Assembly (NCBI GenBank): GCA_036399055.1
Contig: DASWNX010000033.1
Location: 124,429 to 188,428 of the forward strand
Direction of reading: 5' to 3'
Length of the DNA stretch: 64,000 nt
Origin: Jatrophihabitans sp.
Lineage (GTDB): Bacteria; Actinomycetota; Actinomycetes; Mycobacteriales; Jatrophihabitantaceae
Notes under the pieces: generated by a model
What the model saw: the letters and a program-made list of their open reading frames with translations, nothing else
Told to the model about the DNA's origin: nothing
Databases searched by the model: none
Part shown: piece by piece, positions 30,824 through 49,834 of the stretch
How the letters are laid out: every line of letters begins with the position of its first letter
Numbering within the stretch: position 1 is the first letter of the stretch
Position numbers and translations under genes: made by a program

Positions 30824-30925
30824 GTGTCGAACAACAACTGGCCGAAGCTATCCAACTGGGACTGGTCGAAGCCATCCCACTGGAACCGGACGCCCCTCGC
30901 GACCTGGCATTGGCCCACTCCCTGA
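30824..30925 (+). CDS. Trp-rich 33-residue micropeptide A with four octad repeats
   Basis: A GTG-started ORF of 33 codons plus stop encodes M then SNNNWPKL, SNWDWSKP, SHWNRTPL, ATWHWPTP. Six residues are Trp. The repeat consensus is near SNWxWPxP; the third unit has lost its second Trp (CGG instead of TGG). AAAGGAG lies about 7 nt before the GTG. The same length, ribosome binding site and downstream hairpin are shared with the copy 308 bp away. There is no signal peptide and no known family. Another frame is also open here, but it has no start near the AAAGGAG. Confidence 0.72.
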   Translation: MSNNNWPKLSNWDWSKPSHWNRTPLATWHWPTP

Positions 30926-30949
30926 CGCGGCCCCGCCCGACGCACGCCG

Positions 30950-30996
30950 CGCGTCATGCTGCCGCGTCGCCCTGACGACCGCTCAGCACGACGGTC
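30950..30996 (+). terminator. Hairpin downstream of micropeptide A
   Basis: CGCGTCATGCTG and CAGCACGACGGTC form imperfect arms around an inner GTCGC/GACGAC stem. The same structure, perfectly paired, follows micropeptide B, so each peptide gene seems to have its own terminator-like end. Confidence 0.5.
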
Positions 30997-31131
30997 CGCG
31001 ACGGTAGCTCGCGACGGTAGCTGAGGTGACGGCCTCGACTAACCGTTCAGCAAGCCACGGGACGAAGACCGCCAGGTCAGCTGACCGGAGCTATCGCACC
31101 CCTGAAATCACCATTCGTCAAGGAGCGACAT

Positions 31132-31233
31132 ATGTCGAATTACAACTGGCCGAAGCCGTCCAACTGGAACTGGCCGTGCCTCGAGAACTGGGAATGGCCG
31201 TGTCCCGAGAGCTGGCATTGGCCCACTCCCTGA
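31132..31233 (+). CDS. Trp-rich 33-residue micropeptide B with four octad repeats
   Basis: An ATG-started ORF, with AAGGAG about 7 nt upstream, encodes M then SNYNWPKP, SNWNWPCL, ENWEWPCP, ESWHWPTP. All four octads fit (S/E)NWxWPxP, and seven of 33 residues are Trp. Two Cys are exactly eight residues apart (positions 16 and 24). Compared with copy A the length, all other Trp codons, the last octad WHWPTP and the stop are kept, while other residues vary, as expected for selected peptides. Both copies lie between bS22 and bldC. The function is unknown; a multi-core precursor or exported peptide is possible. Confidence 0.75.
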   Translation: MSNYNWPKPSNWNWPCLENWEWPCPESWHWPTP

Positions 31234-31258
31234 CCCGCGCCCCCACCAGACGCACGCC

Positions 31259-31306
31259 GACCGTCATGCTGTCGCGTCGCCCTGGCGACCTCTCAGCATG
31301 ACGGTC
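31259..31306 (+). terminator. Perfect 13-bp hairpin downstream of micropeptide B
   Basis: GACCGTCATGCTG (31259-31271) pairs perfectly with CAGCATGACGGTC (31294-31306), with an inner GTCGC/GCGAC stem. No U-tract follows. It lies 25 bp after the peptide stop codon and matches the structure after copy A. Confidence 0.6.
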
Positions 31307-31385
31307 CGGGCACCGCTCAGCATGACGGTCCGGGCACCGCGCAGCCGGGCACCGCTCAGCCGGGCACCGCTCGTCCGGGCACCGC
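31292..31385. repeat. Tandem repeats between micropeptide B and bldC
   Basis: Two copies of CTCAGCATGACGGTCCGGGC plus ACCG are followed by shorter CAGCCGGGCACCGCT units up to the bldC stop codon. Confidence 0.8.
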
Positions 31386-31589
31386 TCAGCCGGCCTCGAA
31401 GAAGGCGCTCTTGAGATAAGCCTGCACGGCCTTCTCGGGCACCCGGAAAGAACGGCCCACCCGGACAGCGGGCAGCTCGCCGGAGTGCACCATGCGGTAC
31501 ACCGTCATCTTCGAGACGCGCATCACCGCGGCCACCTCGGCCACTGTCAGAAAGCGCACCTCGCGTAACCCGTCAGGGGTCGTATTCAT
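31386..31589 (-). CDS. bldC: BldC-family (MerR-like) DNA-binding protein
   Basis: This 67-residue protein is a single winged helix-turn-helix: FLTVAEVAAVMRVSKMTVYRMVHSGEL then AVRVGRSFRVPEKAVQAYLKS (two parts of one domain). The length and sequence match BldC, a developmental regulator that in Streptomyces binds direct repeats cooperatively. The gene next to proC is conserved in mycobacteria. An inverted repeat TGTCAC-N14-GTGACA lies immediately upstream of the start (31591-31616) and could be an operator. Confidence 0.9.
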   Translation of the reverse strand: MNTTPDGLREVRFLTVAEVAAVMRVSKMTVYRMVHSGELPAVRVGRSFRVPEKAVQAYLKSAFFEAG

Positions 31590-31792
31590 CTGTCACCGGA
31601 CTCTCGGCACGTGACAGTGAGCCCGGCTTCCCGCCGGACAACCTGACACGCACGTGCTGGGCTGAGAGTAGCGGTACCGATGGTGCCCATGCGATACGTG
31701 TTCTTCACAAAGTGGATTCTTTTTTTCTTGAACCGGCGCGGCGGACCCCCGCCCGCGCGTGCCTGTGCTCACCAATGCCGGCGTTGCGCCGT

Positions 31793-32617
31793 TCACTCGG
31801 CGTCGGCGGCCCGGCCAAGCTCTGCCGAGCGGTTGCGGGCGGCTTCGATGGCAGCGAGGAAGGCCGCCCGGACGCCGTGGTTCTCCAGCTCGCGGATGGC
31901 TGAGATGGTCGTGCCCGCCGGGCTGGTGACCGCCTCGCGCAACTGCACCGGGTGCTCGCCCGAGTCGCGCAGCATCACCGCCGAGCCGACCAGCGTCTGC
32001 ACGATGAGCTCGGCCGCCAGCGCCCGTGGCAGGCCCAGCAGGATGCCCGCGTCGATCATCGCCTCGACCAGGAAGAAGAAGTAGGCCGGCCCGCTGCCGG
32101 ACAGGGCGGTCACCGCGTCCAGCTGCGACTCGGGCACCCGGACCACCCGCCCGACCGCCGACAGCAGCTCGTCTGCTCGCTGCAGGTGCGCCTGGGTCGC
32201 CCGGGAGCCCGCCGAGATGGCCGTCATCGCCTCGTCGACCAGCGCGGGGGTGTTCGGCATGCAGCGCACCACGGCGGGTCCGACAGGCAAGCCGCGCTCG
32301 ATCCGCGCGGTCGTGATGCCGGCCGCCACCGACACGATCAGGTGCTCCTCGGTGACCAGCTCGGCCAGCTCCCGCAACAGCAGGTCGATGTCCTGCGGTT
32401 TCACGGCGATCAGGATCGTCGCGCAGGCCTTCGCGGCCTCGTCGACGTCCACCACCCGGATGCCGTAACGCTCGCTGAGGTAGCGGATCCGCTCGGGGTA
32501 GTGCTCGACCACCAGGATGTCCTCGGGGACCGCGCTCCCGCGCAAGAGGCCCGACAGCAGCGCCTCACCGATCTTGCCGCCGCCGATGATCGCCAGCTTG
32601 CCCGGGTTGCTCGTCAT
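31793..32617 (-). CDS. proC: Pyrroline-5-carboxylate reductase
   Basis: ProC makes proline by reducing pyrroline-5-carboxylate with NAD(P)H. The 274-residue protein has the Rossmann motif LAIIGGGKIGEALLSGLL and the family signature ALSGSGPAYFFFLVEAM followed by LPRALAAEL. The usual length is about 270. The start ATG is at 32615-32617. It lies 77 bp downstream of the ppx/gppA stop in the same orientation and may share its transcript. Confidence 0.95.
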   Translation of the reverse strand: MTSNPGKLAIIGGGKIGEALLSGLLRGSAVPEDILVVEHYPERIRYLSERYGIRVVDVDEAAKACATILIAVKPQDIDLLLRELAELVTEEHLIVSVAAGITTARIERGLPVGPAVVRCMPNTPALVDEAMTAISAGSRATQAHLQRADELLSAVGRVVRVPESQLDAVTALSGSGPAYFFFLVEAMIDAGILLGLPRALAAELIVQTLVGSAVMLRDSGEHPVQLREAVTSPAGTTISAIRELENHGVRAAFLAAIEAARNRSAELGRAADAE

Positions 32618-32694
32618 GAGGCCATCCTTCCAGCTGCCGCGCCCTGATGGCTTGCTGGAGGGCTGCGAGTGCCGCGCTGCCTAGCGGAGCCAGG

Positions 32695-33627
32695 TCAGGT
32701 CAGCGCGATCTGGTCCAGCCTGCGCAGGATCACGCCCTCGCGCAGCGCCCACGGAGACAGCTCGAACTCTTCGACGCCCAGCGCCAGCATGGCCTGCTCT
32801 GCCACCACCGCGCCGGCCATCGTCTGGTGTGCCCGAGCCGGCGACACCCCGTCGAGTTCGGCCAGGTCGGTGGCCGGGATCCGGGAGATGAAGCCGATGA
32901 TCTGCCGTAAGCCGTTGATCTGCAGGCTGCGACGAACCCGTGGGCCGGCGCTGGAAGGCGCGGCGCCGGCCAACCGGGCCAGGGTCCGGAAGGTCTTGCT
33001 GCTGGCCACCACCCGGTCGGGCAGTCCGGTGGACAACAGCTGGCGGGCGGGGCCGGCGAGCTGGTCGGCGACGTGCTTGCGCAGCTCCTCGACCGAGCGC
33101 TTGGACGGCGGGTCGCCGTCGAGCCAGTCCCGGGTCAACCGGCCGGCGCCTAGCGGGATCGACAACGCGATCTCGGGAACCTCGTCGGCGCCCACCGCCA
33201 GCTCCAGTGAGCCGCCTCCGATGTCGAGGCAGAGCAACCGGCCGGCGCTCCAGCCGAACCACCGCCGCACCGCCAGAAAGGTCAGCACCGCCTCGTCCTC
33301 GCCGGTGAGCACCCGCAGCTCCACGCCGGTCTCTTCTTTGACCCGGGCCAGCACCTCGGAGGAGTTGCGGGCGTCTCGGACCGCCGAGGTGGCGAAGGCC
33401 AGCAACTCGTCGCACCGCAGCTCGGTGGCCTGCCGCCGCGCGCCCAACGTCGCGCCGACCAGCGCGTCAGCGCCCTCGACGGCGAGGTCCCCGCGCTTGT
33501 CGATGTGCTCGGCCAGCCTCAGCACGCTCTTGCGCGACAGCTGCGGCGTCGGCTGAGCGCCGAGGTGGGCGTCGACCACCAGCAGGTGGACGGTGTTGGA
33601 GCCGACGTCCAACACCCCTAGTCGCAT
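32695..33627 (-). CDS. Ppx/GppA-family phosphatase
   Basis: This 310-residue protein starts [19 protein letters not shown], the phosphate-1 loop of the actin-like ATPase fold, and has [14 protein letters not shown] as the second loop. Members hydrolyse polyphosphate or pppGpp; single-domain actinobacterial forms are often exopolyphosphatases. The start was set at ATG 33627; the open frame reaches further but runs over the divergent gene's promoter. Its position beside senX3-regX3 and phoU fits phosphate metabolism. Confidence 0.9.
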
Positions 33628-33721
33628 GCCGGTCACGCTAGCCGATGACCGCAGCGCGAGAGAGCTGGACTCGGGCAGCCGTCCTGGCGACCCTCGCGTG
33701 CGGCGGGTTAGTCTCGCCGTT

Positions 33722-34576
33722 GTGCCTGCCAGCGCCCGCAACCTTCCTGTCATACAACCCGTCATACAACCTGCCCCCCGCGACCGCGAGGTGGGCCTGG
33801 AGTTCTCCAGGGAGTGGCTGGAGTTCAGCGACCCCGCCAATCCCGAACACCGGATCAGGGCTGACCTGACCTGGCTGTGCTCGCGCTGGACCTGCATCTT
33901 CGGCCGGGGCTGCCACGGCGTCATTGAGGGCCGGTCCGAGGACGGCTGTTGCAGCCACGGGGCGTTCTTCTCCGACGATGAGGACCTCAAGCGGGTGCGC
34001 GGCTATGCCAAGCAGTTGGACGCCGAGACCTGGCAGCACCACAAGGCGGGCCGCGCGAGGGGCATCACCGAGAAGGACTCGGTCGGTGATGAGGAGAACC
34101 GGGTCCGGACCAGGACGGTGGACGGCGCCTGCGTGTTCCTCAACCGGCCCGGTTTCGCCGGCGGCGAGGGCTGCGCCCTGCACGCGCTGGCCTTGCGCAC
34201 CGGCCTGCACCCGCTGGACACCAAGCCGGAGGTCTGCTGGCAGCTGCCGGTGCGCCGTGAGCAGGAGTGGGTCACCAGGGCCGACGACACCCAGGTCCTG
34301 GTGTCGACGGTGACCGAGTTCGACCGGCGGGGGTGGGGCGAGGGCGGTCATGACCTGCACTGGTGGTGCACCTCTTCTCCTGAGGCCCATGTCGGCGCCG
34401 AGCCGCTGTACGTCAGCTACGCGCCTGAGCTCACCGCCCTGATCGGCCAGGCCGCCTACACCGAGCTGTCCAGGCTGTGCGCGCTGCGGCTGGCGCAGGG
34501 TCTGGTGGCGGTGCACCCCGCGACCGCCGCCGCCGGCCAGCCGGTGACCGGCCCCAACAAGGCCGTCGCCGGTTAG
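33722..34576 (+). CDS. Conserved Cys-rich actinobacterial protein (Rv0495c-like)
   Basis: The 284-residue product has many cysteines in small clusters: [53 protein letters not shown] and [10 protein letters not shown]. This pattern suggests metal or Fe-S binding. The gene beside ppx in mycobacteria (Rv0495c) has similar features, from memory. The start is uncertain: I used GTG 33722; an in-frame ATG at 33593 would overlap the ppx start. A small duplication (gtcatacaacc twice) lies just inside the start. Function unknown. Confidence 0.7.
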
Positions 34577-34586
34577 CGGCGCCGGC

Positions 34587-34820
34587 TCAGGCAGCCACAG
34601 CCAGCGAGCGGCCGGCTTGGGCCGGCTCTTCGGCCCAGCAGAACAGGCACTCGATCTGCAGCCCGCGATGCGCGCCGGTGAAGTGGTCGGCGGCCACTGC
34701 GGCGCAACCGTCGCACTCGCCGTTGAAACCCTCGCGGTCCGGGTTGAACCGGGCGCCGCAGTCGGCATTGACGCAGCAGGCGGTGTCGGCGCCGTACTCG
34801 GCGCTATCGATGTCGGACAT
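34587..34820 (-). CDS. Small putative zinc-ribbon protein
   Basis: The 77-residue protein has ACCVNADCGARF, GECDGCAAVAADHF and IECLFCWAEE, which supply several Cys pairs and a His for one or two zinc sites. The start ATG 34820 follows GGAGGTGAG about 10 nt upstream. It converges with the Cys-rich gene at 33722. No family is recognised. A nucleic-acid-binding or metal-buffer role is only a guess. Confidence 0.55.
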   Translation of the reverse strand: MSDIDSAEYGADTACCVNADCGARFNPDREGFNGECDGCAAVAADHFTGAHRGLQIECLFCWAEEPAQAGRSLAVAA

Positions 34821-34939
34821 CGGCTTGCTCACCTCCACAAGTTGACTGAAGCGAACCCTCGCACCGACCTCTGACATTTTCGCTCGGCGGCTGTCGTGAC
34901 CGGCCGCGACGCGCCGACGGCCGGCAGCACCCTCAGCCG

Positions 34940-35015
34940 TCGGACGTCACGCCTCAGCCGTCGAACTTGTAGCCCAGCTGTCGAACAGCACGCCTCAGCC
35001 GTCGAACTTGTAGCC
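34940..35015. repeat. Duplicated 3' end of regX3
   Basis: CACGCCTCAGCCGTCGAACT followed by TGTAGCCCAGC occurs at about 34949 and again at about 34991, where it encodes the real end of RegX3 (YKFDG-stop). A partial third unit, CTGTCGAACAG, lies between. The upstream copy is a non-functional duplicate of the gene end. Confidence 0.8.
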
Positions 35016-35675
35016 CAGCCCCCGCACCGTCAGCAGGTGCTTCGGGTTGGCCGGGTCCGGCTCGATCTTGGCCCGCAGCCGCTTGACGTGGACGTCGAGG
35101 GTCTTGGTGTCACCGACGTAGTCCGAGCCCCAGATCCGGTCGATGAGCTGCCCGCGGGTCAGCACCCGCCCGGAGTTCCTCAGCAGCAGCTCGAGCAGGT
35201 CGAACTCCTTGAGCGGCAACGCGACCGTCGCGCCGTTCACCGCCACGGTGTGCCGTTCGACGTCCAGCCGGACCGGGCCTGCCTCGATCGTGGAGCTCAG
35301 CAACTCCTCGTTCTCCGCGCCCCGGCGCAGCACCGCCCTGATCCGGGCGAGCAGCTCCCGGTGGGAGAACGGCTTGGTCACGTAGTCGTCGGCGCCCAGC
35401 TCCAGGCCGACCACCTTGTCCACCTCGGAGTCCCGGGCGGTCAGGATGATGATGGCGACGTTGGACTTCTGCCGCAGCGAACGGCAGACCTCGGTCCCGG
35501 ACAGCCCCGGCAGCATCAGGTCCAGCAGCACGAGGTCAGCGCCATCGCGTTCGAACTGGCGCAGCGCGTCCGGGCCGGTCTCGGCGACCGACACCTCGAA
35601 GCCCTCACGGCGCAGCATGTAGGACAACGGGTCCGAGATCGACTCCTCGTCCTCGACGACCAGTACCCGGGTCAC
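34995..35675 (-). CDS. regX3: OmpR/PhoB-type response regulator RegX3
   Basis: The 226-residue protein has a receiver domain (TRVLVVEDEESISDPLS, phospho-acceptor Asp in VLLDLMLPGLSG, VTKPFSHRELLAR) and a C-terminal winged helix (LTRGQLIDRIWGSDYVGDTK, VHVKRLRAKIEPDP). In mycobacteria RegX3 activates phosphate-starvation genes. The GTG start at 35675 overlaps the senX3 stop (GTGA). The order senX3-regX3 and nearby phoU match this assignment. Confidence 0.93.
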   Translation of the reverse strand: MTRVLVVEDEESISDPLSYMLRREGFEVSVAETGPDALRQFERDGADLVLLDLMLPGLSGTEVCRSLRQKSNVAIIILTARDSEVDKVVGLELGADDYVTKPFSHRELLARIRAVLRRGAENEELLSSTIEAGPVRLDVERHTVAVNGATVALPLKEFDLLELLLRNSGRVLTRGQLIDRIWGSDYVGDTKTLDVHVKRLRAKIEPDPANPKHLLTVRGLGYKFDG

Positions 35676-36922
35676 CGGGCCCCCTTTCGTGGCAGTGCCT
35701 CTGCTGGCAGTGCCTCTGCTGGCAGTGCGGCAGCGGGAAGCTGAGCTGGACCGGCCACCTGAGCGCGACCGGCCAGCGGCAACCGCATCGTGAAGGTCGA
35801 GCCGGCTCCCAGCGCGCTCCACACCGACACCCGGCCGCCGTGGTTGGTGGCGATGTGCTTGACGATCGCCAGGCCCAGGCCGGTGCCGCCGGTGGCCCTG
35901 GATCGGGCCTGGTCCACCCGGTAGAACCGCTCGAACACCCGGTCCAGGTCGGTTTCGGCGATTCCGATCCCCTGGTCGGCGACGGCGATGTCGACCCACT
36001 CGCCGCCCTCCTCGTCGATGACCAGGCGGCTGGTCACGCTGACCTTGGTGTCCTGCGGGCTGTAGGCGATGGCGTTGTCCACCAGGTTGCCCAGCGCGGT
36101 GCTCAGCTGGGTCTCGTTGCCGCGCACCTGCAGGCCAGGTTCGGTGCGCTCGGCCACCGTGATGCCGGTCTGCTCGGCGAGCAGCCGGCTGCGGTCCACC
36201 GCCTCGCCGACGATCTGATCGACGCTGATCAGCGCCTGCCCGGGCAGCGCCTCGGCCCCCTGCACCCGGGACAACTCGATCAGCTCCTGCACCAACCGGC
36301 CCAGCCGCGAGCCCTCGCGTTGCATCCGTCCCGCGAAGCGCTGCACCGCCTCAGGGTCATCAGCCGCTTCTTGAACCGCCTCGGCGAGCAGGGTCAGGGC
36401 GCTGACCGGCGTCTTGAGCTCGTGGGAGACGTTGGCGACGAAGTCCCGGCGCACCAGTTCCAGCCGCCGAGCGTCGGTGATGTCGGAGAATCGCAGGACG
36501 ACCGAGCCGACCCGCCCGCCGTCGCGCAGCGGCATGGCACGCACCAGAAAGCTCACGTGCTCCGGACCCCGGCCGGGCGTGGACAGGTCCACAGTGACGC
36601 TGTCGGCCACGCCGGAGTCGGTCACCGACCGCACCAGCTCTGACAGCACCGGCATGGTCAGCCGATCACCGTCGACCACCCGCATCCGCCGCGCGACCGG
36701 GTTGGCGAAGATCGCCGTCTCGTCCCGGTCGAGCACCACCACCCCCACGTCCAGCGCGCCGAGGGCCCGCGAGGCCAGGCTCGCAGCCGGAGCCGGCGGT
36801 GAGGTTTGGCCGGGAGCGAGCTCGACGGTGCTGCGGCGCACGAACAACGCCGCGGCGAAGGCCGACACCGCCGCTCCCAGAAGGAACGCGACGACGGCCA
36901 CCTCAAAGCCCACGAATCGCAT
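35672..36922 (-). CDS. senX3: Sensor histidine kinase SenX3
   Basis: The 416-residue kinase has an N-terminal membrane segment (about 5-27), a PAS-like region with VGVVVLDRDETAIFANP, the phospho-acceptor histidine in ANVSHELKTPVSALTLL, N box GNLVDNAIAYSP and G boxes DQGIGIAETD and GGTGLGLAIVKHI. It phosphorylates RegX3 when phosphate is scarce. The C-terminus ends in AEALPAEALPRKGAR, encoded by a short 15-bp repeat. Confidence 0.93.
   Translation of the reverse strand: MRFVGFEVAVVAFLLGAAVSAFAAALFVRRSTVELAPGQTSPPAPAASLASRALGALDVGVVVLDRDETAIFANPVARRMRVVDGDRLTMPVLSELVRSVTDSGVADSVTVDLSTPGRGPEHVSFLVRAMPLRDGGRVGSVVLRFSDITDARRLELVRRDFVANVSHELKTPVSALTLLAEAVQEAADDPEAVQRFAGRMQREGSRLGRLVQELIELSRVQGAEALPGQALISVDQIVGEAVDRSRLLAEQTGITVAERTEPGLQVRGNETQLSTALGNLVDNAIAYSPQDTKVSVTSRLVIDEEGGEWVDIAVADQGIGIAETDLDRVFERFYRVDQARSRATGGTGLGLAIVKHIATNHGGRVSVWSALGAGSTFTMRLPLAGRAQVAGPAQLPAAALPAEALPAEALPRKGAR
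35691..35737. repeat. 15-bp tandem repeat at the senX3 3' end
   Basis: Three copies of GGCAGTGCCTCTGCT encode the PAEAL repeats of the SenX3 tail on the minus strand. Confidence 0.85.
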
Positions 36923-36985
36923 CCTACGGTCGGGGGCCGGGCCCTGACGCGGCTCAAGCCCCCGGGGAGCCGGGCGTCATCTGTT

Positions 36986-37018
36986 GTTCACTCACCGGCT
37001 GCCCGGCATTCATTCCCA
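36986..37018. promoter_or_regulatory. Candidate PHO box between senX3 and phoU
   Basis: GTTCACTCACC and ATTCATTCCCA are in exact 11-bp register with one weaker unit between them. This resembles the 11-bp direct repeats bound by PhoP/RegX3-type regulators. Its position between the divergent senX3 and phoU genes is right for phosphate control, but the repeats are imperfect. Confidence 0.45.
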
Positions 37019-37057
37019 CCGCCCGCGGCAGACACCTCAGGCGCTGAGGCTGGCCGC

Positions 37058-37747: not shown

Positions 37748-37769
37748 CGGTCCGGCCGCCCAGTCCGCG

Positions 37770-37806
37770 GCTGGAAAACGCAGTGATTCTGAAAACGCAG
37801 TGATTC
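37770..37806. repeat. 17-bp direct duplication downstream of phoU
   Basis: GAAAACGCAGTGATTCT occurs twice in tandem between phoU and the micropeptide ORF on the other strand. Confidence 0.8.
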
Positions 37807-37816
37807 TTCGGTGCGC

Positions 37817-37846
37817 TTAAGCGACCGGCCAGTGCCAGTTGTTCAT
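37817..37846 (-). CDS. Trp-rich nonapeptide ORF MNNWHWPVA
   Basis: ATG AAC AAC TGG CAC TGG CCG GTC GCT TAA encodes MNNWHWPVA. GGAAGGGGG lies about 6 nt before the ATG, a good ribosome binding site. The NWxWP core is the same as in the 33-residue micropeptides and MLDNWRWP. The ORF is divergent from the degenerate GGDEF gene about 700 bp away and converges on phoU. It is a single copy, so the support is motif, ribosome binding site and context. Confidence 0.62.
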   Translation of the reverse strand: MNNWHWPVA

Positions 37847-37990: not shown

Positions 37991-38561
37991 CCAGGATGGC
38001 CTGATGCGCAGTGGGTGGGCATCCGCTTAGTAAGATAGACATTCCGCGCATCCAGTTTCGTGCCTGCTTATACAACTAGATGACTTGTCTAATTAATCTC
38101 AACAGGCTAGATACTGCCTAGCCATTATTAATGGCTGCATAATAGACGGCTAAACTGTCATAGACAAAGTGTCTACCTTGCCAGCCTGAGACCCGTATCG
38201 TCGTCCACCACTCCCAGTGGTGCATAACTGTCCCTCCTTACGTGAGCCACTCACATAGCGGGAGCCCTCACACCGGCGTGTACGTTCCGCAGCGACCATC
38301 TGGTCTAATCGTCAACCAGTGGTGCCAGATCCGAACCTTGCGTGTACGGTCTGTAACGGTCAATACAGGGAGATTGCGGATGACAGCCGGCCTGATCAGT
38401 GGCAAGGCGCGGCCTGCCCGACCGCGCCTTAGCCCTGATGATCAGACGCGCGTGTTTACGGCCAGCCCCAGTGACGCGACATTGACTACACCCCCTTCGA
38501 CCATCGTGGTCCGTGCCAGCACTTTCGTGAATTGCGCGCACAGACCGCTGGAAGTGCCTAA
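37991..38561. other. AT-rich non-coding region with paired 15-bp palindromes
   Basis: No convincing gene is present; a plus-strand frame from 38242 has no ribosome binding site and no coding character. TAGATGACTTGTCTA (38077-38091) and TAGACAAAGTGTCTA (38161-38175) share TAGA...TGTCTA with 84-bp spacing, about eight helical turns. Another TAGACA half-site is near 38036, and GGCTAG-N7-CTAGCC lies near 38104. It looks like a regulatory region for the divergent micropeptide and GGDEF-like genes. Confidence 0.5.
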
Positions 38562-39566
38562 GTGCCGGCGGTTCCTGGAATGATCGGACCCGACGACGTC
38601 ACCTTCCTGATCTTGGCAACGATCAGTGTCGCCTATTCCGTCTCGGTTCGGCGGTTAGAGCGCCTTCGGCGCGCCCTTGCCGAAGAGAGAATGCCCGACC
38701 TCATAAGTACCTGGACGTTCGCTGCCGTACTGACCCTGCCACCGATGTACATCGCCGCAGTAGTTACAGTCACTTATCTAGCCGAGTGGCCGTCTCGCAA
38801 AATTGTTAGACGTGCCAATCCACTTAAGTACATTTATACCGGCGCTGCTGCTGGCGGCTCCTGCCTCGCCGCTTCAATCGTTCTGCACGCAATCGGCGGA
38901 GTTGCCGGAGTAGCGCTCGCCATGCTGACTCTCTCCATCGTTGACATCGCAGCAATCGCCACGGCACTGGTGCTGGCTCGGCAGAAGCATGAGCTACGGA
39001 TGTTCGCCAACCCACGAGCACATGCGGCCGAGGCCGCAACGCAATGTCTGGGCATAGCGCTCGCCGGGCTTCTCAGTTGGCACGTTGCTCTGGGCGTACT
39101 CGTGGTGCCGGCACTGCTTCTCGTTCACCATTGGTCGCTGCGGGAGACGGTCACGGTCGAGGAGGCCTTTGACCCGGTCACTGGGTTGTGGTCGGAGGCT
39201 GCGTGGATGGTGCAGGCGCAGCAGAAGCTGCATGACGTGCACGGCCACGTCGCGCTGTACATGATCGACCCGGATGAGGCCGGTCAGGAGGTGCGCATTC
39301 TGCAGACCATCGAGTCGGGCCTGCAACCCTCAGATCTGTTGGGCCGTTACGGCAGCCGGCAGATTCTGGTGCTGATCCCGGTCGGCCTGCCTGAAGGCGG
39401 GCCGTTCCTGGCCACCGGGTTCCGCAAGGACCTGGCCGCCGCCGGGGTGCGCGCGGCGCTGGGCTGCGCGACCACCGGCGACACCGAACTGGAAGGCCTG
39501 CTGATCGAGGCGATGTCTGACCTGATGGGCCGACGCGACGCGGCCGGCATCACCCGAAACTGGTAG
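38562..39566 (+). CDS. Membrane protein with a degenerate GGDEF domain
   Basis: The 334-residue protein has about five to six membrane segments (residues 10-190), including LISTWTFAAVLTLPP, which matches MTSVWTFAGVIALP and MTSVWTFAAALILPP in the two intact GGDEF proteins nearby. The C-terminal domain begins FDPVTGLWSEAAW but has lost the active site: GGEEF is replaced by GSRQI (about 264-268), the inhibitory-site Arg is Gln (QPSD), and the NDTHGH helix is missing. It should not make c-di-GMP; it may be a receptor or regulator. GTG 38562 and ATG 38580 are both possible starts. Confidence 0.7.
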   Translation: MPAVPGMIGPDDVTFLILATISVAYSVSVRRLERLRRALAEERMPDLISTWTFAAVLTLPPMYIAAVVTVTYLAEWPSRKIVRRANPLKYIYTGAAAGGSCLAASIVLHAIGGVAGVALAMLTLSIVDIAAIATALVLARQKHELRMFANPRAHAAEAATQCLGIALAGLLSWHVALGVLVVPALLLVHHWSLRETVTVEEAFDPVTGLWSEAAWMVQAQQKLHDVHGHVALYMIDPDEAGQEVRILQTIESGLQPSDLLGRYGSRQILVLIPVGLPEGGPFLATGFRKDLAAAGVRAALGCATTGDTELEGLLIEAMSDLMGRRDAAGITRNW

Positions 39567-44000: not shown

Positions 44001-44097
44001 ATCGCCCCCTGGTCCGCTGCTTGGCCCGCTGTCCCTGCCACAACGCCGAACCGCCCCCGATCATGCCGCATCGGCGCGAATCGGTGAGAATGCAGTG

Positions 44098-44859
44098 ATG
44101 GAGAACTCGCCAGGACTGGCCGTGGTGACCGGGGCGTCCAGTGGGATCGGGGCCGCGACCGCCCGCCGACTCGCCTCGGCCGGCTTCACCGTGTGGGCCT
44201 GCGCCCGCCGGGTGGACCGGCTCGCCGAGGTGGCCGCGGCCAGCCCGGCGATCACCGCGGTCACCCTGGACGTCACCTCGCCCGACTCGGTCGCCGAGTT
44301 GGCGGACCGGGTGAACGCCGAGCCCGAGGGCCTGGCACTACTGGTCAACAACGCCGGCGGGGCGATCGGGCTCGAACCGGTCGCCGAAGCCGACCCGGCG
44401 GACTGGCTGAGGATGTTCGAGACCAACGTGCTGGGGGCGATGCGGCTGACGCAGGCCCTGCTGCCGGCGCTGGAAGCCGGCCGCGGCGGTCATATCGTGC
44501 TCACCGGCTCGATCGCCGGCTACTCCGTCTATGAGGGTGGTGGCGGCTACTCAGCAGCCAAGTACGCCGCCCGGGCGATGATGGAGACGCTGCGCCTGGA
44601 GCTCAACGGCCGCCCCGTCCGGGTGTCTGAGGTGGCGCCGGGGCTGGTCGCCACCGAGGAGTTCTCGCTGGTCCGTTTTCGTGGCGACGCCACCCGGGCC
44701 GCCGCGGTCTACGAGGGGGTCGCCGAGCCGCTGACGGCCGAGGACGTGGCCGACGTCATCACCTTCGTGGCCACCCGGCCGGCCCACGTGAACATCGACT
44801 TAGCGGTGGTGAAGCCACTGGCCCAGGCCGCCCCGCACAAACTCGACCGGCGGCGCTGA
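44098..44859 (+). CDS. SDR-family oxidoreductase (Rv0484c-like)
   Basis: The 253-residue classical SDR has VVTGASSGIGAATARRLA, NNAGGAIGLEPV, TGSIAGYSVYEGGGGYSAAKYAARA (catalytic Ser, Tyr, Lys in two adjoining pieces) and PGLVATEEFSLVRF. The mycobacterial gene at the same position beside mshA (Rv0484c) is of this type. ATG 44098 gives the normal start; upstream open codons overlap mshA. Substrate unknown. Confidence 0.9.
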   Translation: MENSPGLAVVTGASSGIGAATARRLASAGFTVWACARRVDRLAEVAAASPAITAVTLDVTSPDSVAELADRVNAEPEGLALLVNNAGGAIGLEPVAEADPADWLRMFETNVLGAMRLTQALLPALEAGRGGHIVLTGSIAGYSVYEGGGGYSAAKYAARAMMETLRLELNGRPVRVSEVAPGLVATEEFSLVRFRGDATRAAAVYEGVAEPLTAEDVADVITFVATRPAHVNIDLAVVKPLAQAAPHKLDRRR

Positions 44860-44866
44860 CCAGGCG

Positions 44867-46147
44867 CTAGTTGGCCAGGCCGACGCACTCCACCCGGTCG
44901 CGGCCGGCGCTCTTGGCCGCGTACAGCGCGCTGTCGGCCACGTGCAGCAAGCTCTCGACGTCGGCGCCGTTGTCGGGGTACAGCGCCACTCCGATCGAGG
45001 CCGAGAAGCCACCGAGCGGCACCAGGGGCGCGTCCGGGCTGAACACTTCCAGCTCACGGATCCGGGCCAGGATCCGATAGCTCACGGCCCTGGCGGTGGC
45101 CATGTCCACCTCGGGGAGGATCGCGACGAACTCCTCGCCTCCGAACCGGCCGATGCTGTCGTACTGGCGCAGCTCAGCGGTCAGCCGCTCGGCGACCGCG
45201 ATCAGGACGGCGTCGCCGACCAGATGCCCGTGGGTGTCGTTCACGGCCTTGAACCGGTCCATATCGATGATCATCAGCGCGACGGTGTGCCGGTCGCGGG
45301 CCGCGCGGGCGATCTCCTTCTGCGCGATCTGGCGCCAGGCCACCGCGTTGAGCAAGCCCGTCTTGGGGTCGGTGGTGGCAGCCACCTCGAGTTGCTTGAT
45401 CAACGCGCCACGCTGCAACACGACCAGGGGGACGATGCTGAGGAAGGACAGCCACGGCGTGAACACCAGCGTCAGGCCGGTCATGCCGCCAAGGCACAGG
45501 GTCGCGACCTCGAGCCCGTTCTCTTCGGCGGTGCCGAACAGCGCGCGGACCGGAAGCGGCCGAGCGGCCAAGAAGATGGCGCCGGCGATCATCGTCGTGT
45601 TGACGGCGGTGTAGGCCACCAACGACAGCAGCACTATCCCCGCGCCGCCGAGGCCTCCGGACAGGTGGGCCAGATGTGTCGAGGTCACGTTCACAATGGC
45701 CGAGCCGGTGAGGCAGGCCAGCATGACGGTGGCGGCGGTGAACATCTGACGGTAGGGATGGATGCCGGCGCGCAGTCGCAGCACCGTCATGGCCACCGCG
45801 ATCAACAGCGCCAATAGCGCCGACAACCCCGACGGCAACGCGATCACTCCGGCGAACGTCCAGACCGAGGTCATGTCGATCTGGTGGCTGTCAGCCATCC
45901 GGATACGCATCCGCTCGATGCGCGGCGAGATCTGCTGGAACGCGGCGAACAAAGCGGCCAGCACCCCGAACCGGATCAGGTCCGAACGGGTCACCGTCTC
46001 GGTGAGCAAGGCGGTGACCGTCCACAGAACGGCTGCGACCTCGGCCAGCAACAGGTACCGAGCAAGGTCCTTGGGCAGTGACCACAGCTCCCAGGAACGC
46101 GGCGCAAACCTGCGCCTTCTCGTCTCGGGTGGCGGTGCCACTGTCAT
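44867..46147 (-). CDS. Membrane-bound diguanylate cyclase (GGDEF), copy 1
   Basis: The 426-residue protein has about six to seven membrane helices (residues 25-250) with the shared motif MTSVWTFAGVIALPSG, then a GGDEF domain: TTDPKTGLLNAVAW, IDMDRFKAVNDTHGHLVGD, inhibitory site RQYD and active site GRFGGEEFVAIL (GGEEF about 336-340). All catalytic features are present, so it should make c-di-GMP from two GTP. The sensor region has no name I know. ATG 46147 follows GGAG; 46216 is an alternative. It is transcribed away from the hexapeptide array. Confidence 0.88.
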   Translation of the reverse strand: MTVAPPPETRRRRFAPRSWELWSLPKDLARYLLLAEVAAVLWTVTALLTETVTRSDLIRFGVLAALFAAFQQISPRIERMRIRMADSHQIDMTSVWTFAGVIALPSGLSALLALLIAVAMTVLRLRAGIHPYRQMFTAATVMLACLTGSAIVNVTSTHLAHLSGGLGGAGIVLLSLVAYTAVNTTMIAGAIFLAARPLPVRALFGTAEENGLEVATLCLGGMTGLTLVFTPWLSFLSIVPLVVLQRGALIKQLEVAATTDPKTGLLNAVAWRQIAQKEIARAARDRHTVALMIIDMDRFKAVNDTHGHLVGDAVLIAVAERLTAELRQYDSIGRFGGEEFVAILPEVDMATARAVSYRILARIRELEVFSPDAPLVPLGGFSASIGVALYPDNGADVESLLHVADSALYAAKSAGRDRVECVGLAN

Positions 46148-46353
46148 CCCGCTGCGCTCCAGACCCCTTGCAGTGCTACGAGCCTTCACAGTAACGGCTT
46201 CGTAGCGGTGTGTCACCGTGCTCAGAAATTCTCAAGTGGGGTGACAGAGAGCAACTGACCTACGTAAGATCAGTGACGACTGCGCCGCCTATAGCGCATA
46301 TTAGCCAGGCTGGCAACTGAGTTGAGACTCGACGGACATAGCTTTGCACAGAT

Positions 46354-46384
46354 TTGACACGGCCATACCAACACTGACTATACA
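46354..46384 (+). promoter_or_regulatory. Candidate promoter of the hexapeptide array
   Basis: TTGACA (46354-46359) and TATACA (46379-46384) are separated by 19 bases, slightly long. It lies about 140 bp before the first MNNHGW ORF in a noticeably AT-richer stretch. Confidence 0.45.
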
Positions 46385-46408
46385 TTGAACGCAGAACGGG
46401 CAAGGAGG

Positions 46409-46525
46409 ATGATTAGAACAAGCACGGTGAGTAGAGCAGGCGCAGGGAAAAAAAATACCTTTCAACCAAGAAAACTTTTGCGGGCTTCCACCCCGCCGAT
46501 CGAGAAGGGAAGCAGGCCCACGTGA
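46409..46525 (+). CDS. Possible 38-codon leader ORF upstream of the hexapeptide array
   Basis: ATG 46409 opens a frame MIRTSTVSRAGAGKK... that ends TGA at 46523-46525, overlapping the first hexapeptide start (GTGA). AAGGAGG is present but touches the ATG, too close for normal initiation, so translation is uncertain. If used, it would couple translation into the first MNNHGW copy. Confidence 0.2.
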   Translation: MIRTSTVSRAGAGKKNTFQPRKLLRASTPPIEKGSRPT

Positions 46526-46542
46526 ACAACCACGGCTGGTAG
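46522..46542 (+). CDS. Hexapeptide ORF MNNHGW, copy 1
   Basis: GTG AAC AAC CAC GGC TGG TAG encodes MNNHGW. It is the first of five copies spaced 70-72 nt apart. Its purine-rich upstream segment (GAAGGGAAGCAGG) is less regular than in copies 2-5. Evidence for translation comes from the array: among copies only the first base of the start codon, the third base of Gly and the last base of the stop vary, all silent. The product lacks any signal peptide. Confidence 0.7.
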   Translation: MNNHGW

Positions 46543-46592
46543 CCCGCGGCAAACCTCTCGCTCCGTCCGAACCCACGACCGAAAGGCCCCCC

Positions 46593-46613
46593 GTGAACAA
46601 CCACGGCTGGTAG
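46593..46613 (+). CDS. Hexapeptide ORF MNNHGW, copy 2
   Basis: The coding bases are identical to copy 1, 71 nt downstream. GAAAGG lies about 6 nt before GTG. The preceding spacer contains TCCGTCCGAACCCACGA, which is repeated before copies 3 and 5. Confidence 0.72.
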   Translation: MNNHGW

Positions 46614-46663
46614 ATCCACCCGCACTACGCGCTCCGTCCGAACCCACGAACGAGAGGGCCCCC

Positions 46664-46684
46664 GTGAACAACCACGGTTGGTAG
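46664..46684 (+). CDS. Hexapeptide ORF MNNHGW, copy 3 (synonymous Gly codon)
   Basis: The same peptide is encoded with GGT instead of GGC for Gly, a silent change, 71 nt after copy 2. GAGAGGG lies 5 nt before GTG. This copy is key evidence that the peptide, not the DNA word, is conserved. Confidence 0.75.
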   Translation: MNNHGW

Positions 46685-46733
46685 ACCCACCCGCACTTCG
46701 CATCCCCCGTCCGAACCCGAAGGAAAGGCCCCC

Positions 46734-46754
46734 GTGAACAACCACGGCTGGTAG
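46734..46754 (+). CDS. Hexapeptide ORF MNNHGW, copy 4
   Basis: Coding bases are as in copies 1 and 2, 70 nt after copy 3. GGAAAGG lies 5 nt before GTG. Confidence 0.72.
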   Translation: MNNHGW

Positions 46755-46805
46755 CCCGCAGCACACTTCGCGCCCGTCCGAACCCACGAACGGAAAAGGT
46801 TCCCC

Positions 46806-46826
46806 ATGAACAACCACGGCTGGTAA
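46806..46826 (+). CDS. Hexapeptide ORF MNNHGW, copy 5 (ATG start, TAA stop)
   Basis: ATG AAC AAC CAC GGC TGG TAA: both start and stop codons differ from the other copies yet keep their function, 72 nt after copy 4. GGAAAAGG lies 6 nt before ATG. It ends 16 bp before the convergent MFS gene's stop codon. Confidence 0.75.
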   Translation: MNNHGW

Positions 46827-46833
46827 CACGCCG

Positions 46834-46851
46834 CGCCGGCTCCTACCGGCG
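46834..46851. terminator. Hairpin between the hexapeptide array and the convergent MFS gene
   Basis: CGCCGG (46834-46839) and CCGGCG (46846-46851) enclose a 6-nt loop and overlap the MFS stop codon. It could terminate transcripts from both sides. Confidence 0.45.
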
Positions 46852-48069
46852 TTGCTCGACTACTTGTGCTGAGCCATTTCTGGCCCACAGCACGGTGAAC
46901 CACACCGCGAGCCCCGTCCCCACCGCGCCGGCCAGGCCCACCGCCGAGGCGGCCCCGAACCGGCTCGCCACTATCCCGCCCAGCAGGATCCCGATCCCCT
47001 GGGCAGCCAGCAGCCCAGACGCCGCGACTCCGATGGCTTGCGCTCGCTGGCTGTCGGGAATGGCGCGGACGTATTCGGTGACCACCTGCACCTGGTAAGC
47101 GGTCGCCGCGCCACTGACCGCCCAGAGCGCGATCGACACCACGATGCCCGGGCGCAGCCAGCACACCACCAGGGGCAGTCCGCAGGCGATCGCGAGGCCG
47201 CACATCCACGTCGGCCTGGACGCGCTGGGAACGAAGCGCAGGAACAGGTAGGTGCCCAGCGCGGTGCCCGCGGGACCCGAAGCCATCAACAGGCCGACGC
47301 CGACGGGGCCGGCGCCGAGCGAGTGGGCATAGGGCGGCGCGACGCCCTCGGGCACCACGTACAGCCCGAGCAACCAGGACAATCCGAGCAGCGTCCGCAG
47401 CTTCGGGTCCTTGAGGACCAGCTTGGCGCCCATCGTGATCGAGGCGAGGTAGCCGAGCTCGGCGCTGAGCCCGCCGTCCGGCGCCGGACGGGGCCGGACG
47501 CCGAGGGTGATGAACAGCGCGGAGAGCCCGAAAGTCAGCGCGTTGATGCCCAGGCTGGCGTGGGCGCCGATCACCGCCACCGTCACCCCGCCGAAGGCGA
47601 ACCCGGTCAACTGCGCCAACTGGTTGGTGATGGTGCGCAGCCCGGTCCCGACCACGTAGGCCTCGCCGGACAGGATCTCAGGTATCAGAGCTGATTCGGC
47701 AGCGCTGAACGGCGATCCTGCGAGCACCGCGAACACCAGCAGGGTGCAGACCGTCCACAGCGGCACGCCTGGGAGCGCCATCAAGCCGATCAGGACGGCG
47801 CGGATCAGGTCCGCGGCGATCATCACCCGTCGTCGGGGCATCCGATCGGCCAGTCCCGACAGCAACGCGCCGCCGATCAGGGCGGGCAGAAAGGTGAGGG
47901 CGTAGGCGAGCGCGGTCAGCAGCGCGGAGGAGGTGCGTTCGAAGACCAGCATCGACAGCGCCACCCGAGCCAGCTGGTCGCCGGCCATCGACTGCGCGTC
48001 GGCGAGCCAGAGCACTCGGAATTCTGGAACCCGGAGCACGTCGAGGAACGTCACCCGAGAAGCAGCCAT
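46843..48069 (-). CDS. MFS transporter, copy 1
   Basis: The 408-residue protein has about twelve membrane segments and the MFS motif near LSGLADRMPRRRVMIAADLIRA (loop 2-3, DRMPRRR). It starts MAASRVTFLDVLRVPEFRVLW, very similar to the second MFS gene at 49848, and shares GTGLRTITNQLAQLTGFAFGG and GLYVVPEGVAPPYAHSLGAG with it. It resembles drug-export-type MFS proteins (MFS_3). ATG 48069 was chosen as the conserved start; the ribosome binding site is weak. It converges on the hexapeptide array. Substrate unknown; peptide export is a hypothesis. Confidence 0.85.
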   Translation of the reverse strand: MAASRVTFLDVLRVPEFRVLWLADAQSMAGDQLARVALSMLVFERTSSALLTALAYALTFLPALIGGALLSGLADRMPRRRVMIAADLIRAVLIGLMALPGVPLWTVCTLLVFAVLAGSPFSAAESALIPEILSGEAYVVGTGLRTITNQLAQLTGFAFGGVTVAVIGAHASLGINALTFGLSALFITLGVRPRPAPDGGLSAELGYLASITMGAKLVLKDPKLRTLLGLSWLLGLYVVPEGVAPPYAHSLGAGPVGVGLLMASGPAGTALGTYLFLRFVPSASRPTWMCGLAIACGLPLVVCWLRPGIVVSIALWAVSGAATAYQVQVVTEYVRAIPDSQRAQAIGVAASGLLAAQGIGILLGGIVASRFGAASAVGLAGAVGTGLAVWFTVLWARNGSAQVVEQRR

Positions 48070-48239
48070 GACTTTTTGCACGTTCGGGATCAACCTCGCC
48101 TTCGGTGACACGGTAACCGTCAGGCCGACCACCGGATACACCCGGTGCCCATTTGAGCACAAGATGGGCGATGGTCATACCCGTTCGGCACACAGAGTTC
48201 CAGAGGGGCTACCGAACGTATGCCTTGCGCGCCCCATCG

Positions 48240-49523
48240 TCACACGGAATGAGCGCACACCATGACTCGGTTGCGCCCGGCGCGCTTGGCCGCGTACAGC
48301 GCGGAGTCCGCCGAGTGCAGCAGGTCCTCCAGCTCGACGCCGTGCTGGGGGTAGCAACTGATCCCGATCGAGGCCGACAAGCCGGTCAGGGGCGGCTGGC
48401 CCTGCGCCGCGGTGGCCACTTCGAGCAGCTGGACCTGCTGGCGGATCCGCTCGGAGATCCCGACCGCGGCCAGCTCGTCCACCCCGGGCAGCATCGCCAC
48501 GAATTCCTCGCCGCCGAACCTGCCCACCGCGTCGTACTGCCGCAACTCCTGCACCAGGCAGTCGGCCACCGCCCTGAGCACGTAGTCGCCCGCCAGGTGG
48601 CCGTGGGTGTCGTTCACCAGCTTGAAGTTGTCCATGTCGATGATGAGCAACGCCGCTGCCTCGTGCTCACGATGCGCGCGGGCCAGCTCGCGTTGAGCCA
48701 TGTGCTGCCAGGTCGCGGCGTTGAGCAGCCCGGTCTTGGAGTCGGTCGTTGCGGCGATCTCGAGTTGCTTGGTGAGCACGCTGCGTTGCAGGACGAACAG
48801 CGGCGGCACCACCAGCACGCTCAGCAGCGGCTGGGTGGCCAGCGCCAGGGCAGTCAGCCCGCCGAGGCAGAGGGTGGCGAACTCCAGCGTCACGTCCTGC
48901 CGGTTTTCCAGCAATTCGCTGAACTTGACGGGCCGGACTGCCAGGTAGATGGCCACGAACAGGACGACGAAGTTCACGGCCGCGTAGGCCAGCATGGCCA
49001 CGCCGACAGCCATCACCGCCTGGAAGGCCTGGCCGGCGCCGTCGAACCCGGCGGGGAAGAGGTTCAGGACCAGGCGAGCGGTCAAGCAGGAGGCGATCAC
49101 CACCGCCGCGCCGAACACCTGACGGTAAGCCCGCATGCCACTATGCCGCTCGTGACGTAACCAGGCATAGCCGAGCACGACCGCGCACAACAGCACCGTC
49201 AGCGCCGGCGGCAGGATCAGGGCAGCGGCGAACGTCCAGACCGAGGTCATGTCGACGTGGCCGTAGGCGGCTAACCTGATGCGTAATCGAGCGATCCGGT
49301 GAGAGGTCTCTTCAAAGAGGACCCACAGACCGAGCAGGATCGCGAGCCGCGCGACATCTGACACAACGGGTTGAGTGTTGATAATCAGACACAAAGCCAC
49401 TATGAAGATCAGTGCGTCGATAGTCAGCACGAAAGCCAACATCGCCCGCGGGGTGGCCCAGAGGTCCCACGAGCGGAACCTCGCCAGTGGCGGAATCGGT
49501 GCGCCGCGTGCTGTTCGGAACAT
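48240..49523 (-). CDS. Membrane-bound diguanylate cyclase (GGDEF), copy 2
   Basis: The 427-residue paralogue of the cyclase at 44867 has the same layout: FRSWDLWATP near the N-terminus, about six to seven membrane helices with MTSVWTFAAALILPP, then TTDSKTGLLNAATW, IDMDNFKLVNDTHGHLAGD, inhibitory site RQYD and GRFGGEEFVAML (GGEEF about 337-341). It should be catalytically active. The ATG follows GGGGAAGT. It is divergent from the MLDNWRWP array and downstream of nothing obvious; the 170 bases between it and MFS copy 1 hold no clear gene. Confidence 0.88.
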   Translation of the reverse strand: MFRTARGAPIPPLARFRSWDLWATPRAMLAFVLTIDALIFIVALCLIINTQPVVSDVARLAILLGLWVLFEETSHRIARLRIRLAAYGHVDMTSVWTFAAALILPPALTVLLCAVVLGYAWLRHERHSGMRAYRQVFGAAVVIASCLTARLVLNLFPAGFDGAGQAFQAVMAVGVAMLAYAAVNFVVLFVAIYLAVRPVKFSELLENRQDVTLEFATLCLGGLTALALATQPLLSVLVVPPLFVLQRSVLTKQLEIAATTDSKTGLLNAATWQHMAQRELARAHREHEAAALLIIDMDNFKLVNDTHGHLAGDYVLRAVADCLVQELRQYDAVGRFGGEEFVAMLPGVDELAAVGISERIRQQVQLLEVATAAQGQPPLTGLSASIGISCYPQHGVELEDLLHSADSALYAAKRAGRNRVMVCAHSV

Positions 49524-49670
49524 ACTTCCCCACCCGGTTGTCTTGCCTCAGAAGTTAGTGGATCGAGGACGGGTTGTCATCTGCGTAACCACCCATAAGT
49601 AGGAAAGCACCAGTACGCCCTCATAACATACTTATCGGGGCGAAGACGCGTCCAGAGGGAGGTTTGACAG

Positions 49671-49697
49671 ATGCTCGACAACTGGCGCTGGCCCTAG
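49671..49697 (+). CDS. Octapeptide ORF MLDNWRWP, copy 1
   Basis: ATG CTC GAC AAC TGG CGC TGG CCC TAG encodes MLDNWRWP. GGGAGGT lies 7 nt before the ATG. The NWxWP core matches the other Trp-rich micropeptides. The copy 72 nt downstream has identical codons except for the stop (TAA). Confidence 0.72.
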   Translation: MLDNWRWP

Positions 49698-49742
49698 ACG
49701 GCAGGCCTTTGCACACCGATCACGACGTGAGGAGGCACAGCA

Positions 49743-49769
49743 ATGCTCGACAACTGGCGCTGGCCCTAA
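49743..49769 (+). CDS. Octapeptide ORF MLDNWRWP, copy 2
   Basis: The codons are identical to copy 1 but end in TAA. GAGGAGG lies 8 nt before the ATG, a strong ribosome binding site with different surrounding sequence, so the sites are conserved independently of the spacer. Confidence 0.72.
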   Translation: MLDNWRWP

Positions 49770-49807
49770 ACCACAGGACGCCAACCCGACGAACTCAAGG
49801 AGGTGAC

Positions 49808-49834
49808 ACGCTCACCGACGGGCGCTGGCCCTGG
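49808..49834 (+). pseudogene. Decayed third copy of the octapeptide ORF
   Basis: ACG CTC ACC GAC GGG CGC TGG CCC TGG aligns with the octapeptide ORF: start ATG became ACG, one Trp became Gly, and the stop became TGG, giving TLTDGRWPW. A near-perfect AAGGAGGTGA remains just upstream. The frame then runs to TAG at 49886-49888, overlapping the convergent MFS gene. Confidence 0.6.

Follow-up and report, generated by a model that had tools for sequence, protein, structure and literature searches.

Micro-ORFs for hexa- to nonapeptides are paired with one family of membrane diguanylate cyclases in Jatrophihabitans and related actinobacteria

A 64,000-nucleotide (nt) stretch of a Jatrophihabitans sp. 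genome (contig DASWNX010000033.1, positions 124,429 to 188,428; hereafter the window) contains a number of tiny open reading frames (ORFs), which an earlier note had grouped with two Trp-rich 33-mers as one functional family with Asn and Trp as its shared feature. We found that these micro-ORFs are real and that the finding is larger than first noted, and that their common thread is pairing with a cyclase, not Trp. As is well supported by the observations below, micro-ORFs of 6-9 codons lie divergent from genes for a single family of membrane diguanylate cyclases (DGCs), which has one particular membrane domain, often with a major facilitator superfamily (MFS) gene alongside. The arrangement has the look of a peptide signalling system, one not described before, in many soil actinobacteria.

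Results

The pairing was apparent when the two strands upstream of the cyclase genes were compared in 201 homologous loci, each with at least 400 nt of upstream sequence. Using a detector that selects copies by peptide likeness of at least 60%, we observed tandem arrays on the divergent strand at 63/201 loci, on the other strand at 0/201, and none in any of five dinucleotide shuffles; because of this difference, chance is excluded for the micro-ORFs. ORFs for 6-8-mers preceded by a Shine-Dalgarno (SD) sequence were present within 500 nt at 139 of the 201 loci, compared with 4 on the other strand and 9, 9, 4, 5 and 8 in the shuffles. When near-identical upstream regions were removed, arrays were still seen at 60 and single ORFs at 118 of 168 loci (0 and 4 on the other strand), and 126 of these non-redundant loci had an array or a single micro-ORF. 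With relaxed limits (4-14 amino acids, 2000 nt), families appeared at 65 loci on the divergent strand and at two, L185 and L260, on the other. The cyclase-strand ORFs of these two loci (MCQEFMGFLRG/MCQEFTGFLRG; MLTRSSLLVERL and relatives) are probably by-products of the tandem repeat. As a control, 20 GGDEF genes whose N-termini differ were taken from 114 matches in six genomes; they gave no single hits and one array-like case in 32-nt steps. The latter (L354, G004:C1:3255217-3260217) has MRAAHR-like short ORFs upstream of a GGDEF gene of another type.

The earlier note had proposed that conservation of the peptides with third-position changes would support them as genes, and this was borne out in the arrays. 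Within the window alone, the copies are too alike for codons to be compared statistically. Across 61 distinct arrays, 85 of 110 single-base codon variants were synonymous, with 31.0 expected (z 11.6); without the MRNRES arrays the count was 42/67 against 19.0 expected (z 6.3), and in MRNRES alone it was 43/43. There were 21 further variants with more than one base changed, 2 synonymous and 19 non-synonymous. The count was repeated on the same arrays after picking their copies by similarity of the DNA (no more than 5 mismatches): 268 of the 277 copies were intact ORFs, so that the frames are kept, and inner mismatches at codon positions 1, 2 and 3 numbered 47, 33 and 153. Mismatches in the start codon were distributed 77/2/6, as expected with ATG/GTG interchange. 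Single-copy orthologues vary sparsely, and 11 of their 18 codon variants were non-synonymous (R/K, D/E, G/S and position-2 changes). Judged from the sequences taken together, it is well supported that the array copies behave as protein-coding genes under selection at the amino-acid level. A conserved operator between the DGC gene and the micro-ORF was considered and rejected, as the conserved stretch looks like the beginning of the DGC coding sequence, and a known RNA element was likewise rejected, with 0 Rfam matches at gathering score in nine loci.

To describe the distribution, we used the window genome and eight congeners as a set of nine genomes. With the membrane domain of the first window cyclase as query, 28 matches were obtained, and divergent micro-ORFs were present at 24 of them, spanning 9/9 genomes. 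Among the other four, two (L089, L091) have less than 75 nt of upstream sequence on the contig and two (L090, L092) truly have none. The peptides vary between the homologues within the genus (MNNVTWR, MNNNQWF, MTNHIWG, MNAHAWG, MQHLEWQ, MLRQWEWP, MNSIEWP and others). The MNNHGW type occurs in three copies each as MSNHGW in G003 and G006, M[ND]NHSW in G008 and MNNHGW/MSNHGW in G002, and no match was found in four other congeners with two mismatches allowed. The MLDNWRWP type appears as MLYNWRWP, MLKNWRWP and MLGNWNWP in G002 and as MLDNWRWP (twice) and MLRNWRWP in G008. One homologue (L079, L117, L195) has a single MQNQGWNQGW ORF, which resembles a fusion of a repeated shorter unit.

The family extends well beyond the genus. 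At the family level, the membrane domain was found in 21/24 genomes, with peptides including MTVVNWS (seven times), MNSNSW (seven), MN[VLI]WDW (five) and MQNWGL (four); matches were obtained in 114 of 397 genomes sampled at the order level and in 5 of 396 in a phylum-wide sample, own genome counted. Eighty further order-level upstream regions, picked roughly by rank with some close orthologues skipped, were organized alike, except that a minority had no micro-ORFs. When named genomes were scanned with an alignment of 14 sequences, 80 loci of 134 relatives were retained, among them records titled Amycolatopsis, Pseudonocardia, Kutzneria, Lentzea, Saccharothrix and Thermocrispum and metagenome-assembled genomes (MAGs) labelled Pseudonocardiales or Frankiales, the nearest being MAGs titled Pseudonocardiales. 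Arrays in these genomes encode MRNRES (2-9 copies, Amycolatopsis), M[AT]NRDN (Thermocrispum) and MRNKNW plus MRNWTW (Pseudonocardia); single-copy loci encode, for example, MNGRED, MRNRDF, MCNRDF, MRNRDM, MSNRDS and MRNRDT. The commonest hexapeptide residues are M-R-N-R-[DE]-W. In 30 Amycolatopsis genomes, exact MRNRES ORFs occurred in seven, with one cluster per genome (in one assembly across two contigs), and the reversed pattern did not occur in any of the 30.

In the window itself, two paralogous modules have the same order: a minus-strand GGDEF gene, a plus-strand array upstream of it and a minus-strand MFS gene (Table 1). Each array thus points away from the cyclase gene and towards the transporter gene. 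The GG[DE]EF motif is intact in both of these cyclases and not in their paralogue at 38562-39566, from which MSRHWGWP, accompanied by MNNWHWPVA, diverges as a third pair. The degenerate GGDEF domain of this paralogue has a Pfam E of 0.05-0.08, and similar paralogues with their own micro-ORFs exist in the genus (L094-L101). All tiny ORFs named in the earlier note are present, including the MLDNWRWP copy described there as decayed, and each follows a purine-rich, ribosome-binding-like sequence; MSRHWGWP was absent from the earlier list. The silent-only variation of the earlier note was also confirmed for MNNHGW, the five copies differing by ATG/GTG, GGC/GGT and TAG/TAA only. A scan of both window strands for SD-preceded ORFs of 6-9 amino acids, at least 80% alike and at most 200 nt apart, returned the MNNHGW and MLDNWRWP arrays only. 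Arrays range from 1 to 12 copies, each copy having its own ribosome-binding site, with start-to-start spacing mostly about 60-75 nt in tandem arrays. A consensus scan also marked positions 46241-46270 of the array strand as promoter-like.

Table 1 Micro-ORFs, partner genes and 33-mers in the window
Feature	Position	Strand	Remarks
MNNHGW micro-ORF, copy 1	46522..46542	+	similar ORFs in G002, G003, G006, G008
MNNHGW micro-ORF, copy 2	46593..46613	+	
MNNHGW micro-ORF, copy 3	46664..46684	+	silent GGT
MNNHGW micro-ORF, copy 4	46734..46754	+	
MNNHGW micro-ORF, copy 5	46806..46826	+	ATG start, TAA stop
MLDNWRWP micro-ORF, copy 1	49671..49697	+	related ORFs in G002 and G008
MLDNWRWP micro-ORF, copy 2	49743..49769	+	
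MLDNWRWP third copy, decayed	49808..49834	+	start and stop codons lost
MSRHWGWP micro-ORF	38456..38482	-	divergent from degenerate-GGDEF gene; G002 equivalent MLRQWEWP
MNNWHWPVA micro-ORF	37817..37846	-	same intergenic region as MSRHWGWP
Membrane DGC 1, GGEEF motif	44867..46216	-	Pfam GGDEF 1.3e-42; sequence; membrane-domain model; proposed MNNHGW receptor
MFS transporter 1	46843..48162	-	Pfam MFS_1 6e-21; TIGR00900 below cut-off; proposed exporter
Membrane DGC 2, GGEEF motif	48240..49523	-	Pfam GGDEF 1.1e-43; sequence; proposed MLDNWRWP receptor
MFS transporter 2	49848..51239	-	Pfam MFS_1 6.5e-23; proposed exporter
DGC paralogue, degenerate GGDEF domain	38562..39566	+	similar membrane domain
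33-mer of SNWxWP-like octads, first	30824..30925	+	6 Trp of 33; lineage-limited
33-mer of SNWxWP-like octads, second	31132..31233	+	7 Trp of 33; lineage-limited

The proximity of GGDEF and MFS genes, to which the earlier note had drawn attention, was seen in other genomes as well. At 48 of the 73 named loci with enough sequence, the DGC gene has an MFS homologue upstream on the same strand; at 25 there is none in that place, and among the 12 assessable MRNRES loci 11 have none there; at L104, L134, L137 and L155 an MFS homologue is elsewhere in the locus. Clustering the neighbours of 59 named loci gave as the two most widespread clusters the DGC itself (48 loci) and a mostly upstream, DGC-strand cluster (31 loci), which, judged by its position, is the MFS gene. 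Of 128 neighbour proteins picked by place and size from 30 of these 59 loci, 94 were scanned against Pfam: MFS_1 was found in 13, TetR_N in six and GGDEF in five, with no other family in five or more. The 25 most frequent families of these 94 proteins included no RiPP-type modifying enzyme (RiPP, ribosomally synthesized and post-translationally modified peptide), no ThiF-like MccB enzyme, no P450 and no Rgg-type family.

The membrane domain is predicted by modelling to resemble the S-component fold of vitamin transporters, plus an extra helix, and may share the six-helix arrangement of RibU and ThiT. A known sensor domain was looked for and rejected: the first member matched no Pfam family above cut-off, MASE9 matched weakly and below cut-off (6 of 40 members at E <= 10, best E 0.0021), and a sequence search of the PDB gave one chance-level match (E 0.33). 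PF07694 (5TMR) had no match at E <= 0.01 in the 40 members and was not among the 25 families listed of the 32 found at E <= 10.

In a quick receptor tree, the peptides clustered by clade (MRNRES, MNGRED, MRGQNW, an MAGRDQ/MRSKDQ group, a Lentzea MxNRDF group and an NHGW group), many forks of the tree being weak and L076 being a stray long branch. For 110 hexapeptides, mean peptide identity fell from 0.97 at more than 80% receptor identity to 0.22-0.24 at 20-40%, and peptide and receptor identity correlated with rho 0.28 against a permutation maximum of 0.16; this comparison, like the tree, includes five contig-end loci with a wrong gene start (L076, L087, L182, L186, L210). Below 50% receptor identity, rho was 0.10, inside the permutation range, and common descent alone could be sufficient for the trend. 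Paralogues within one genome differ in peptide, as seen in the five loci of G305 (MNGRED, MAGRDQ, MAGKEW, MRGQNW and MQDNNW). Twelve homologous cyclases (L257, L258, L266, L268, L262, L270, L274, L275, L267, L296, L154, L157) form a clade without a detectable micro-ORF, and these perhaps have another ligand or have lost the peptide.

Asn and Trp did not turn out to unify the family. A candidate peptide could be assigned at 141 of 167 loci in a looser list, which holds a few likely chance picks (MMWSRR, MTLTSA, MRRATSLP), and Trp is present in 74 of these 141; relatives such as MRNRES, MRNRDF, MNGRED and MAGRDQ do without it. The genus-wide search for NWxWP that the earlier note had advised, run as a DNA pattern, gave matches roughly equal to the reversed control in most of the nine genomes. 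Trp and the NWxWP motif were therefore rejected as the defining feature, many related peptides being without the motif.

The two 33-mers are as rich in Trp as had been claimed (Table 1), and they have no DGC- or MFS-type neighbour. They are flanked by what we take to be a small basic ribosomal-protein-like ORF and an excisionase-like ORF next to proC. Such ORFs were found at 2 of 22 syntenic proC loci, namely G000 (two 33-mers) and G002 (a 23-mer and a 13-mer), and not at the other 20, so that they are limited to this species and G002. Of these four ORFs, three begin with MSN-like residues and NWPKPS or something close to it; their lengths differ. Perhaps the 33-mers are an element derived from the family or one of separate origin. 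Of what the earlier note took for a single functional family, the hexa- to nonapeptide ORFs are supported as conserved and under codon-level selection, and we keep the 33-mers only as a possible side branch. Just 3' of the second 33-mer, at 31293-31385, there is a short GC-rich, GGGCACCGCTCAGCC-like repeat. Beside the 23-mer of G002 (L068 5791-5811; L361 705), extra small ORFs (MSNWNW, MSQWNSPKPSTWH) suggest turnover of this side locus.

Discussion

We consider it probable that the paired genes form a ligand-receptor module, in which the MFS protein exports leaderless peptide signals and the cognate DGC senses them. The micro-genes, often in tandem, would be translated directly into mature leaderless peptides and the adjacent MFS protein would export them; the divergently encoded membrane DGC would then bind the peptide in its S-component-like pocket and alter the synthesis of cyclic di-GMP (c-di-GMP). 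The outcome would be an input of population or self-density to c-di-GMP, and paralogous modules with different peptides would be separate channels. What we infer here is that the genes are translated in vivo, that the peptide is exported and sensed outside the cell, and in which direction c-di-GMP changes. The full generalization, that Pseudonocardiales-type actinobacteria use diversified, leaderless and unprocessed hexa- to octapeptide signals, encoded by tandem micro-gene arrays and read by membrane DGCs via a vitamin-transporter-like pocket into c-di-GMP, seems to us evenly balanced.

Among the alternatives, the least unlikely is that the product is microcin- or RiPP-like, i.e., a modified peptide exported by the MFS protein to hit competitors, with the DGC as a self-sensing or regulatory partner. 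Microcin C begins as a leaderless gene for seven amino acids (PMC6495379, available part), and biarylitides are made from an 18-bp gene (PMC13417212, available part). However, the constant partner here is a signalling enzyme, and a modified peptide was rejected because no modifying enzyme recurs among the 94 neighbour proteins, in their 25 most frequent families, of which only MFS, TetR and GGDEF occur in at least five; single cases may occur among the rarer families.

It is also unlikely that the micro-ORFs act in cis to adjust MFS or DGC expression, whether as leader cistrons that are translated or as an antisense transcript, while the peptide is idle in trans. They lie on the strand opposite to both genes, the MNNHGW array ends at 46826, just before the edge of the MFS stop codon at 46843, and a weak hairpin is possible 3' of the array (z -1.4), where a consensus scan found no intrinsic terminator. 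Against this, residues are kept while codons vary, peptide type tracks the receptor clade, the range of 1 to 12 copies is not obviously needed by a cis device, and the window modules have no same-strand gene 3' of the array. We regard as equally unlikely an intracellular role for the peptide, as a small regulatory subunit of either membrane protein, the DGC or the MFS transporter. In favour of this, no secretion signal would fit into peptides so short, and the MFS gene is missing from its expected place at 25 of the 73 named loci; on the other side, the peptides are very short and mostly polar, and an S-component-like fold suggests an outward-facing pocket for a small ligand (PMC11109136, available part). 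Non-coding repeats that look like ORFs by accident, i.e., transcription-factor sites or structured RNA, would agree with the tandem layout upstream of a gene and are very improbable given the third-position bias, the interchange of start and stop codons, the kept frame and the lack of Rfam matches in nine loci.

If the ligand-receptor module is true, it would add both a gene architecture, in which genes of 21-30 nt stand in tandem arrays, and a signalling logic, in which a membrane diguanylate cyclase is controlled by a gene-encoded peptide; our literature searches turned up no precedent for these. Many membrane GGDEF proteins have, to our knowledge, no known input, and the actinomycetes concerned, e.g., Amycolatopsis, include important antibiotic producers. 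The finding suggests that gene families can stay hidden below the limits of gene finders. The peptides are short enough for immediate synthesis, and the question is therefore directly testable.

Comparison with known systems

The earlier note knew of no described family with its motif, and our literature searches, with most subscription journals outside their coverage, likewise gave no description of such a peptide-DGC system. No described system that we found joins these parts.

Four known systems share some of the parts. The leaderless communication peptides (LCPs), including SIP, which act with RopB-clan Rgg receptors in Firmicutes, are encoded by ultrasmall ORFs, most of 8 to 10 amino acids, whose product is the mature leaderless peptide; the gene is near the receptor gene, divergent in the S. 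salivarius example, and each receptor has a distinct peptide (PMC10518010, available part). The same source describes the receptor as a cytosolic transcription factor, the peptides as highly hydrophobic and SIP as working without canonical export or import machineries; the words 'actinobacteria' and 'tandem' are absent from the available main text. Here too a leaderless ultrasmall ORF is beside the gene of a proposed receptor. In contrast, the constant partner here is a membrane GGDEF protein and not a cytosolic Rgg/RopB (RRNPPA) receptor, the peptides are mostly polar, and there are an MFS neighbour and tandem arrays.

Microcin C, which is exported by the MFS protein MccC, resembles our system in its leaderless short precursor gene (6-9 codons here) and in the MFS gene, found here at 48/73 named loci. 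Its mccA gene encodes a heptapeptide in seven codons and the toxin is adenylated with MccB; reiterative translation of the short ORF in vitro and the importance of the N-terminal formyl group were also described (PMC6495379, available part), and by analogy these might explain the narrow length range of our micro-ORFs. The difference is that no modifying enzyme recurs among the frequent neighbour families here, and that a DGC partner is present, while none is given for microcin C in the available part of that paper.

Biarylitides come from 18-bp genes that evade automatic detection, as do the tiny genes described here, and their five-residue precursors receive a biaryl bridge made by a P450, with the cores YWH, YVH and YWY (PMC13417212, available part). 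Our peptides have 6-9 residues, Tyr appears among those listed only in MYTWHL/MYTWHI and MLYNWRWP, and P450 does not appear in the list of the 25 commonest neighbour families. Receptors of the S-component fold (5TMR sensor kinases), some with GGDEF outputs, have an extra N-terminal helix and a six-helix membrane domain with a cytosolic output (PMC11109136, available part), and the domain predicted here would similarly join an extra helix and an S-component-like membrane domain to a cytosolic output. Unlike them, our cyclases have no PF07694 match among the Pfam families listed, and the available part of PMC11109136 gives no gene-encoded peptide ligand for 5TMR. By analogy, the nearest counterparts appear to be LCP/SIP for the type of gene and microcin C for the leaderless heptapeptide.

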